A DNA stretch of 61,308 nt from a virus. Position numbers and translations under genes: made by a program. Positions 24,430 to 30,590 of the stretch are shown one piece after another. Under the pieces are notes generated by a model. It did not search any database. It saw only the letters and a list, made by a program, of their open reading frames with translations, and was not told the origin of the DNA. Positions within the stretch are counted from its first letter, which is position 1, and every line of letters begins with the position of its first letter. Where the stretch lies: positions 1 through 61,308 of the IMG/VR virus record IMGVR_UViG_3300034284_003027. One strand, given 5' to 3'.

Positions 24430-24888
24430 ATGGTAAGACTCGGACTCAAAGCCAAGCTCTATCGAAACACGGGCTCCTACGGATCCCCCGTGTGGAACGA
24501 GGTCAAGAATGTCAAAGACCTAACGCTCACAATCGAAAAGGGTGAAGCGGATGTTAGCACTCGAGGCAACGATGGCTGGCGAGCGCTCATCGGCACACTC
24601 AAGTCCGCTTCGATCGAGTTTCAAATGGTTTGGGATACGGCGGATGATGACCACACTGCCTTTCACACCGCTTTCTTCGCCGATAGTCCCGTAGAGTTCG
24701 CGATCATGGATGGCAAGATGGTCGCAGATTCGGGTGGGGAAGCTAGCCAAGGACTCCGCGCCACTTGCAGTATCTTCAACTTCAGCCGAAACGAAGAGCT
24801 TGAAAACGCCATCATGACCGACGTTTCGATCAAACCCACCTATGCCATCAATGCTCCATCCTGGATCACCGGAACGATAGGACTCTAA
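24430..24888 (+). CDS. Tail tube protein
   Basis: A 152-residue protein. 'KAKLYRNTGSYGSPVWNEVK', 'LTLTIEKGEADVSTRG', 'GWRALIGTLKSASIEFQMVW' and 'FAIMDGKM..DSGGEASQGL' match the small tail tube proteins of siphoviruses. It polymerises around the tape measure protein. It lies directly before the chaperone and tape measure genes, as expected. Confidence 0.8.
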   Translation: MVRLGLKAKLYRNTGSYGSPVWNEVKNVKDLTLTIEKGEADVSTRGNDGWRALIGTLKSASIEFQMVWDTADDDHTAFHTAFFADSPVEFAIMDGKMVADSGGEASQGLRATCSIFNFSRNEELENAIMTDVSIKPTYAINAPSWITGTIGL

Positions 24889-24895
24889 AACCATC

Positions 24896-25345
24896 ATGCC
24901 AAATTTTACCGATGCATTGGGCCGTTCGTGGCCATTGAGCGTATCCTATGCCACCTGCAAAAAGATTCAATCGCAATGCGATATCAACCTACTCGATGTC
25001 GCGCAGATCGATCAAACGATTGGTCGTATGCGACTCGACAATCTTCTGGTAGGAGACATCGTCCTCTGTTTGTGCAGTGCAGAATGTACCGCCAGAGGCA
25101 TTAGCCTCGATAACTTTCAGGACGCTCTCGATGGCGAGGCGCTTGACAGTGCGAGCAGTGCGTTGCTGGAGGGACTTGCTAGTTTTTTCCGGAGAGGTCA
25201 GAAGGGCAGGCTTCTGACCGAAATGATCAGCAAGCTAAAGCAGATGGAACTGACAGCAACCAACCAAGCACTGGCAGACATCGAACGCGAGACGAGTGGG
25301 AGGTCTGGCGATTCGGCTACGGTCTTGCAGGAATCCTCCACGTAG
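24896..25345 (+). CDS. Tail assembly chaperone, short form (gpG-like)
   Basis: A 149-residue protein produced by normal reading. 'FTDALGRSWPLSVSYATCKK', 'LDVAQIDQTIGRMRLDNLLV' and 'FQDALDGEALDSASSALLEG' fit the N-terminal chaperone domain found between tail tube and tape measure genes. As in lambda gpG, most ribosomes should terminate here (TAG at 25343), while a minority shift to the -1 frame at 25183-25189 to make the long form. Confidence 0.8.
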   Translation: MPNFTDALGRSWPLSVSYATCKKIQSQCDINLLDVAQIDQTIGRMRLDNLLVGDIVLCLCSAECTARGISLDNFQDALDGEALDSASSALLEGLASFFRRGQKGRLLTEMISKLKQMELTATNQALADIERETSGRSGDSATVLQESST

Positions 25346-25593
25346 ATCCCGGCCCTTTCACATTGCGTGAATTGGTTTGGATGGTCGAGGAACAGCAAGA
25401 TAATTGGTGGGACCATACGGCTTCCATCCTGGCCATCATTGCCGAAGTGAATCGCGACAAGAAGAAGAATCCAACCCCATTCACGGCCGCCAAGTTTCAT
25501 CCTCGCAAGGCGAAACAGAAGCAGCCACCCGCTGAACAGGTTGACCTCAAAATACTCAAGTCAATTTTTGTGGAGAGGAGGCCACTGCAGTAA
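24896..25593 (+). CDS. Tail assembly chaperone, -1 frameshift product (gpGT-like)
   Basis: The first 98 residues are shared with the short form; after T TTT TTC at 25183-25189 the ribosome slips back one base and reads 25189-25593 in the new frame, giving about 232 residues. The extension has no stop and contains DEWEVWRFGYGLAGI, DPGPFTLRELVWMVEE and 'WDHTASILAIIAEVNRDKKK', text I know as a stand-alone-looking 'T' domain in related phages. Its conserved part begins upstream of any usable start codon in that frame (first candidate TTG 25363), so frameshifting rather than internal initiation is required. The GT form should bind the tape measure protein during tail assembly. Confidence 0.8.
25183..25219 (+). 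promoter_or_regulatory. -1 programmed ribosomal frameshift signal
   Basis: The slippery heptamer T TTT TTC (25183-25189) is in the right phase to the chaperone reading frame. A 6-nt spacer follows, then a perfect 9-bp hairpin: GGTCAGAAG (25196-25204), loop GGCAGG, CTTCTGACC (25211-25219). All three parts of a classical -1 signal are present. Confidence 0.85.
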
Positions 25594-28498: not shown

Positions 28499-29376
28499 TG
28501 CCACAGCGTGGAGATCCACTTGCAATTAGTGCCCGCGACTGGACGGACATGCAACGCGTGGTCGACAAGTTTCGTAACGGTGGCGAATCGTTTCAAGCGG
28601 AAGCAATGCAGAGCTCGTATCGCAGCCCTGCAATTGTAAAGGTGCTAAACGCTACGGGAACTCCGCTCGAGCATTGTGGAATCGTGGGACTCGGCGAACC
28701 CGTGATTCTACCAACCGACAACGAAATGGAGTTCATCCGGAACATCGCGTTCAGGATAGTGCCCCCCTTGCCTGGTCGATGGGGCGTCCTGCAGTCGCCG
28801 GTTGCGGCCGGTGAGATTACCACCGCGATCGTTGCGGGAGTTGCGGCCTGCAAAATCAACGTCACTTCAGAGATTGGCCTGAATCGATTCGCGGATGCAG
28901 TTGCGCCCGATTTCACAGAGTTGATGGTAAGTGATTCGGTTGGCAATGCTCAAATCCTGTGGCGTGCAGGGGGCACTGGTAGCCAATGGGCGATCGTCCG
29001 GATTGGCAACACAGCATGTACAGAGAGGCTCGAAAAATTCGTAATGCTAAGTGATTGGTCGGACGATGGTCTTGCGGTTGCTCGCTTTACGTTAATGGAA
29101 GCGGTCGCACCGGACATGGTAGGGATAGTCGAAGATCCATTAGGGATATTCGCAGACCAAATCGGACTTGGAAACTCAGGGCTCGCCACAAGAACATGTA
29201 GCGGACGGCATTTTGTGATCCAAGCCGCATGTGAACAAGATGAGGTTGCTCCAAGTGCTCCGCTTGGAAGCTGCGCCTACAGCGATCCGACCGGCAATCC
29301 TGCTTGTTCGATTACGACCGAAGCAGATTGCGAGGCAATTCCTGGCACATGGACTTTGGGAGGAACGTGTCTATGA
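28498..29376 (+). CDS. Distal tail/baseplate hypothetical protein
   Basis: A 292-residue protein starting at TAATG. 'QRGDPLAISARDWTDMQRVV' followed by 'YRSPAIVKVLNATGTPLEHC' and 'WGVLQSPVAAGEITTAIVAG' is text I have seen in planctomycete phage baseplate-region proteins. The C-terminus is cysteine-rich ('LGSCAYSDPTGNPACSITTE', 'TWTLGGTCL'), suggesting a small disulfide or metal-stabilised knot. Overlaps the repeat protein gene by ATGA. Confidence 0.6.
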   Translation: MPQRGDPLAISARDWTDMQRVVDKFRNGGESFQAEAMQSSYRSPAIVKVLNATGTPLEHCGIVGLGEPVILPTDNEMEFIRNIAFRIVPPLPGRWGVLQSPVAAGEITTAIVAGVAACKINVTSEIGLNRFADAVAPDFTELMVSDSVGNAQILWRAGGTGSQWAIVRIGNTACTERLEKFVMLSDWSDDGLAVARFTLMEAVAPDMVGIVEDPLGIFADQIGLGNSGLATRTCSGRHFVIQAACEQDEVAPSAPLGSCAYSDPTGNPACSITTEADCEAIPGTWTLGGTCL

Positions 29377-30590
29377 CCGGTCATCCTTGTTGCTGCGTTG
29401 AGACAAGTTCCTCTAGCTCATCGGTGTCTAGTTCGTCGTCTAGTTCGAATCCAAGCTCATCCGTTAGCTCATCGAGCTTGTCCAGCAGCTCTTTTCCATC
29501 ATCCAGCAATCCCTCGTCCAGTAACCCATCTTCGAGTAACCCATCTTCGAGTAACCCATCTTCGAGTAATCCATCATCCAGTAATCCCTCGTCCAGTAAT
29601 CCTTCATCTAGTTACCCATCGAGTGGCAATCCGTCATCATCGAATCCATCGTCGAGTAACCCTTCGTCGAGTAACTCATCATCGAGTAACTCATCGTCTA
29701 GAAACCCATCGTCTAGTAACTCCTCGTCTAGTAACTCCTCGTCTAGAAACCCATCGTCTAGTAATCCATCGTCTAGTAATCCCTCGTCCAGTAATCCCTC
29801 GTCCAGTAATCCTTCATCTAGTAACTCTTCATCTAGTAACTCTTCATCTAGTAACTCTTCATCTAGTAACTCTTCATCTAGTAACCCATCATCCAGCAAT
29901 CCATCTTCGAGTAACCCATCGAGTAGCAATCCCTCGTCTAGTAACCCGTCGAGCAGCAATCCGTCATCATCGAATCCATCGTCTAGCGATCCATCGTCTA
30001 GCAATCAATCCTCTAGCAACCCTAGCTCTAGCAACCCATCGTCCAGTAATCCATCATCTAGTAACCCTAGCTCAAACAATCCATCGTCTAGCAATCCATC
30101 GTCAAGCTCGTCATCAAGATCATGCCAAGAGCCATGCTGCTTCCCTGGAACATCGCAATTTATCAAGGGCTTTCACGTAACGATAACTGGAATAGTTAGT
30201 AACCAATGCAACTGCGAAGATGTTGAGTTGACAATAAACTTTGGAAATGATCGCTGCGATTGCGTAATGTCCAAGGAAATAGAAATCGCTGGTCCACATG
30301 ATTGCTGGAATGCAGTTAGTAGAATAGGAATGTCTCTGGTTTGCTCAGAAAGTGGCATTACAGTCGATTTAGGATTGTTTCCAGACGATGGGTTGCAAGG
30401 AGAAACGCATTGGACTCAAACACACCCACCTGGAACAGCACCAGGGGATGTGATAATTGACGGGAGTGCTTTCTATAGCCAAGGTGACAACTTGTCTTGC
30501 GATTACCAAAACGCTGTCGTGACCGCTACGCCAATTCTTTCATCGAGTAACGAATGCTGTGATGATCTTGCCGAAGGTCCACCACCATGA
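29373..30590 (+). CDS. Ser/Asn/Pro pentapeptide-repeat tail protein
   Basis: A 405-residue protein with three parts. Residues 1-10 are MTGHPCCCVE. Residues about 11-250 are a low-complexity stalk of some 47 pentads, mostly SSSNP, with variants SSSNS, SSSRN, SSSYP and SSSDP. Residues about 255-405 are a cysteine-rich globular head (SCQEPCCFPG, CNCEDVELTI, RCDCVM). It is encoded with the baseplate genes and overlaps both neighbours by ATGA. A long flexible stalk with a distal head suits an adhesion fibre. The dense serines are potential O-glycosylation sites, and two glycosyltransferase-like genes follow within 0.3 kb. No signal peptide is seen, as expected for a virion part. Confidence 0.7.
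   Translation: MTGHPCCCVETSSSSSSVSSSSSSSNPSSSVSSSSLSSSSFPSSSNPSSSNPSSSNPSSSNPSSSNPSSSNPSSSNPSSSYPSSGNPSSSNPSSSNPSSSNSSSSNSSSRNPSSSNSSSSNSSSRNPSSSNPSSSNPSSSNPSSSNPSSSNSSSSNSSSSNSSSSNSSSSNPSSSNPSSSNPSSSNPSSSNPSSSNPSSSNPSSSDPSSSNQSSSNPSSSNPSSSNPSSSNPSSNNPSSSNPSSSSSSRSCQEPCCFPGTSQFIKGFHVTITGIVSNQCNCEDVELTINFGNDRCDCVMSKEIEIAGPHDCWNAVSRIGMSLVCSESGITVDLGLFPDDGLQGETHWTQTHPPGTAPGDVIIDGSAFYSQGDNLSCDYQNAVVTATPILSSSNECCDDLAEGPPP
29403..30120 (+). repeat. 15-bp minisatellite encoding SSSNP pentads
   Basis: About 47 tandem 15-bp units of the type AGTAAYCCATCGTCT, with synonymous variation between units and stretches of several identical units (for example around 29820-29880). The phase is kept throughout, so changes in copy number alter stalk length without breaking the frame. 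Confidence 0.9.

Follow-up and report, generated by a model that had tools for sequence, protein, structure and literature searches.

Through -1 programmed ribosomal frameshifting, a single gene in the window most probably (probability about 0.93) yields two forms of a tail assembly chaperone, the short product G (16.1 kDa) and the fusion G-T (26.0 kDa). The window is the whole stretch of 61,308 nucleotides that was analysed, positions 1 to 61,308 of IMG/VR record IMGVR_UViG_3300034284_003027, a single metagenomic virus contig. Judged from its sequence, the locus is the known lambda/P2 tail-chaperone frameshift in a new phage. A preliminary description of this DNA had likened the design to lambda gpG/gpGT, and this reading is supported by the gene order, the family of the T domain, the close relatives, substitutions becoming fewer at the slip site and homologous heptamers in distant lineages.

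The same 61-kb contig carries genes for a gpA-type terminase, a lambda-type portal, a protease-capsid fusion and a head-tail joining protein. Other genes encode a protein that joins a ParB N-terminal domain to an N6/N4 DNA methylase (1516-2943) and, downstream of the tail genes, a long Ser/Asn/Pro repeat protein made of SSSNP units (29304-30590). G and T follow the tail tube gene and precede that of the tape measure, as in lambda-type gpG/gpGT loci; tail assembly chaperones normally occupy this slot. The locus is composed as follows.

24430..24888, plus strand: tail tube (major tail) protein, PF06199 (E 2e-6) and phrog_1407, upstream neighbour of G
24896..25345, plus strand: gene G, 0-frame product, putative tail assembly chaperone, ATG start, 149 aa, 16.1 kDa
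25189..25278, plus strand: -1 frame linker of the predicted G-T fusion, 30 aa, hydrophilic
25279..25590, plus strand: T domain, -1 frame, stop TAA at 25591-25593, Phage_tail_T PF06223
25596..27674, plus strand: tape measure protein, phrog_8462 (E 6.6e-39), downstream neighbour of T

The preliminary description had placed inside G a phased T_TTT_TTC followed, after a spacer of 6 nt, by a hairpin of 9 perfect bp. All three were found at 25183-25219, and the anatomy of the signal is directly visible in the window. A further element upstream was considered as a candidate.

25168..25173, plus strand: GGAGGG, 9 nt 5' of the heptamer, candidate stimulator resembling a Shine-Dalgarno sequence
25183..25189, plus strand: T_TTT_TTC, slippery heptamer phased with G at codons 96-98
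25190..25195, plus strand: 6-nt spacer CGGAGA, unchanged in relatives
25196..25219, plus strand: hairpin, candidate frameshift stimulator, 9 perfect bp with a 6-nt loop

The G frame reads GCT AGT TTT TTC CGG at this point, and the hairpin pairs GGTCAGAAG (25196-25204) with CTTCTGACC (25211-25219) at -15.7 kcal/mol, with a stability z of -2.7 to -3.5 relative to shuffles in the window and in its relatives L007 and L024. Its distance of 6 nt falls within the 5-9 nt after X_XXY_YYZ at which structures stimulate -1 frameshifting (PMC5009743). Of the 25 XXXYYYZ heptamers that are in phase within 58.7 kb of ORFs, 25183-25189 alone is followed by a perfect stem of at least 7 bp at 4-9 nt. When G was randomised synonymously 20,000 times, 0.7% of the sequences had a phased heptamer with an open -1 frame, 0.005% had in addition a stem of at least 8 bp, and none had one of at least 9 bp. 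Because the signal is unique among the 25 phased sites and was never reproduced in the randomisations, it is not a chance occurrence.

GGAGGG is preserved in the window, L007 and L024 despite changes in nearby codons, and the 16S gene of the metagenome-assembled genome (MAG) that contains L024 ends in CACCTCCTTT, which makes a Shine-Dalgarno-like stimulator resembling that of dnaX possible; the motif is absent at the distant loci L017 and L018, and this suggestion is weakly supported. The E. coli dnaX signal consists of a Shine-Dalgarno-like element, an A-run heptamer and a hairpin (PMC3711429), and would share its architecture with the window if GGAGGG is functional, although gene and purpose are unrelated. 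Two other structures were considered and rejected: a pseudoknot through the hairpin loop, as the loop varies whereas the downstream sequence does not, and a long-range helix between an upstream CTTGCT and a downstream AGCAAG, which is not preserved in L007 or L024.

As had been proposed beforehand, the -1 frame runs into the conserved T text without a stop: a TAG at 25180-25182 closes it immediately 5' of the heptamer, after which it stays open up to TAA at 25591-25593. The earlier claim that no start precedes the T text in its own frame also held, as a scan for ATG, GTG and TTG found none until TTG at 25363 and no near-cognate start appeared until ATC at 25333, both positions lying inside or after the conserved T text (DEWEVW from 25291). 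T thus overlaps G in the -1 frame without a start of its own, as in lambda-type pairs. The fusion would comprise 232 aa with a predicted mass of 26.0 kDa; for G and the fusion, the predicted 16.1 and 26.0 kDa compare with about 16 and 25 kDa anticipated earlier. The T of the window alone matched Phage_tail_T (PF06223) with E 0.0043, below the Pfam curated cut-off, and 10 of 11 aligned T homologues matched the same family at E 0.1 or better (best 6e-20). On this homology T is assigned to the lambda gpT family, an assignment made directly from the matches obtained here. Searching PDB sequences with the alignments of G and of T returned nothing useful, and a BFVD search with T gave weak matches.

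Conservation of the signal was observed directly in a close set of relatives, comprising two metagenome assemblies (L007 and L008; G 97% identical) and a MAG contig (L024) with about 81% DNA identity to the window. All three have retained the heptamer with its spacer and stem as well as both reading frames. Among the window and these relatives, TTT TTC is preceded by AGT, TAT or AAT, and the final T of this codon is always kept, so that the amino acid before the slip varies while the first T of the heptamer stays. Differences within the hairpin are confined to loop bases; the stem is invariant and offers no covarying pairs. In L007 (6309-6315) and L008, the loop differences create a second phased heptamer, G_GGA_AAG, which is the slippery site of lambda. 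Over three distinct sequences (the window and close relatives), 62 of 287 columns vary ahead of the slip, 13 of 156 within the overlap and 53 of 240 where T alone is encoded (Fisher p about 1e-4); no variable column falls within 25183-25206. Variable 0-frame third positions likewise numbered 43/95 before the slip versus 9/52 in the overlap (p 6e-4). Substitutions fall sharply at the slip site and remain low through the dual-coded overlap, the pattern expected of DNA read in two frames. These data also bear on the view that the gene has decayed or that the two frames reflect an error in sequencing; the origin of the window in a single metagenomic record might speak for it. Against it, the layout is identical in L007, L008 and the about 81%-identical MAG contig, with purifying selection in both frames. 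A sequencing error is ruled out because the relatives retain the layout and every element of the signal from heptamer to stem while the preceding codon changes. Of the explanations considered this is the least credible, with practically no chance of being right.

The identity of G was approached through its homologues and a structural model. The G of the window had no family match in Pfam or PHROG, and a tblastn search of the L018 G against named phages found no match; among aligned G homologues, one matches phrog_2115 'tail protein' and one matches Phage_TAC_11. The predicted model is alpha-helical (mean pLDDT 80), and its best viral fold matches are tail assembly chaperones, albeit weak, while a PDB fold search with the model gave noise only. 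In this model, a helix spanning residues 81-97 stops at the slip site, and a second helix at 102-143 follows after the slip in the short form only. The slip lies at codon 98 of 149. As a result of this early position, the short form has its own tail of 51 residues, which is conserved and predicted helical, and the long form reads the same DNA (25189..25278) as a hydrophilic linker. The first 30 residues of the 0-frame tail are 28-29/30 identical between relatives, and the -1 linker from the same DNA is 24-26/30 identical. Short and long products therefore probably have alternative C-terminal parts. In the window, L017 and L018 alike, the linker is hydrophilic, with many G, S, P, D or E residues, and both distant loci show the same plan of an early slip site with, probably, alternative C-terminal parts. 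We offer tentatively, and as a rather doubtful proposal, that the slip sits at a domain edge, which would make the C-terminal parts mutually exclusive, with a disordered linker plus T in the rare form and the helical 51-residue tail in the abundant one; that tail may then give the short form a separate job, for example in G-G or tape-measure packing.

The position of the slip raises the alternative that frameshifting is real but takes place mainly elsewhere in the overlap, closer to the T domain. T homology begins near 25279, about 90 nt past the heptamer, and up to about that point the tail in the 0 frame is conserved; L007 also has the phased G_GGA_AAG in its hairpin loop. However, the overlap of the window contains no phased XXXYYYZ other than T_TTT_TTC, and conservation begins exactly at this heptamer, so another main slip site is very unlikely.

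Slippage at T_TTT_TTC is also consistent with distant lineages. L017 (43% identity in T) has T_TTT_TTC with an 8-bp stem 6 nt downstream, and L018 (42% identity in T) has C_CCT_TTT with a 9-bp stem 6 nt downstream. Both heptamers are at homologous codons (IDFFQP and IPFVPR versus ASFFRR in the window). Their stem sequences are unlike that of the window, and the two hairpins are no more stable than shuffles (z -0.7 and -0.9). Elsewhere the heptamer is A_AAA_AAC (L004 and L022), A_AAT_TTC (L006), C_CCT_TTA (L005), A_AAA_AAA (L011) or, in the Syntrophomonadaceae phage L030, C_CCA_AAC. The alignment of homologues suggested in the preliminary description thus found the heptamer invariant in L007, L008 and L024, and a phased heptamer within the G/T overlap in 9 of 10 tested lineages versus 2.0 expected (P about 8e-7). 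Cyanophage PSS2, an outgroup left out of this count, has a probable G/T pair annotated as two genes (L031:2237-2980) with lambda's heptamer, G_GGA_AAG, phased in the overlap at 2300. L028/L029 keep the -1 G/T layout without a canonical heptamer; the homologous place (L028:2855-2880) reads TCT TTT TAC, which provides only T_TTT_TAC, so that slippage of the P-site tRNA alone would be needed.

Two further explanations are affected by these lineages. T might be translated separately, by re-initiation or from a non-standard internal start after G, with the slippery signal being coincidental. At L017:2986-2989 a T-frame ATG overlaps the G stop (ATGA), from which T could start on its own, and planctomycete start signals are poorly known, which also favours this view. 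Since the window, L007 and L024 have no ATG, GTG or TTG ahead of the conserved T text and the substitution drop begins at the heptamer, separate translation has only a slim chance of being correct. The chance that RNA polymerase joins the frames by slipping on the T run appears slimmer still; T runs can be slippery for polymerases, but those cited are longer than 8 (PMC3711429), while the run here has six T only. The heptamer is also phased for slippage of two tRNAs and followed by a spaced hairpin, and the C_CCT_TTT used in L018 contains no long run. Points that count against ribosomal frameshifting itself are the invariant stem, the L017/L018 z scores, the L028/L029 heptamer and the L017 ATGA, and further the Pfam score of the window T and the lack of a family match for G.

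Under ribosomal frameshifting, most ribosomes would translate G through to its stop at 25345. A smaller share, made to pause by the hairpin while T_TTT_TTC occupies the P and A sites, would slip back one base (tandem -1 slippage) and then read a flexible linker and the T domain in the -1 frame to give the 232-aa G-T. By analogy with lambda, G and G-T alike would cover the tape measure protein, and recruitment of the tail tube subunit would fall to the T part of G-T, the rare long form. We infer the slippage, its efficiency and the chaperone roles from lambda and P2.

Tail chaperone frameshifts are widespread, and the -1 frameshift of lambda gpG/gpGT was reportedly described by Levin (1993) and Xu (2004). 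In lambda it occurs at G_GGA_AAG (PMC5009743, PMC7618472), and in the lambda model both forms bind the tape measure and T recruits the tail tube (reviewed in PMC5009743). The window shares with lambda the place between tail tube and tape measure, the -1 direction, PF06223 and the lack of a separate T start. It differs in using T_TTT_TTC with a downstream hairpin, in slipping at codon 98/149 rather than near the 3' end of G, and in the long conserved tail of its short form. The preliminary description had called the sequence elements different from lambda's, which is correct with respect to G_GGA_AAG; however, T-run slippery sites are known in tail chaperone genes, as T6G in P2 E/E+E' and as T7C in xanthomonad P2-like prophages (PMC3931495), so the elements are less new than was implied. 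With these systems the window has in common a T-run site in a tail chaperone gene and the -1 direction, but its T domain matches the lambda T family, its heptamer is six T followed by C, and its overlap is 163 nt compared to 37 nt in P2. A cluster of HK97-like tail assembly chaperones, from other phages and other hosts, also makes two forms through frameshifting, at 6-7% when tested (PMC3711429).

The assignment to a probable planctomycete phage receives modest support from L024, which lies in a Pirellula-labelled MAG, although the label could be a binning accident. The finding extends the lambda/P2 tail-chaperone frameshift to poorly studied phages probably infecting planctomycetes, with support that is evolutionary and at the level of sequence. 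Standard annotation misses or truncates such T genes, as had been foreseen: in GenBank PV036453.1 (L030), T is annotated at 2615-2827 while its frame is open from 2423 (2423-2827), and the N-terminal part is lost. Across lineages, the position, the direction and a phased heptamer are kept, whereas heptamer identity, stem sequence and overlap length are free to vary.
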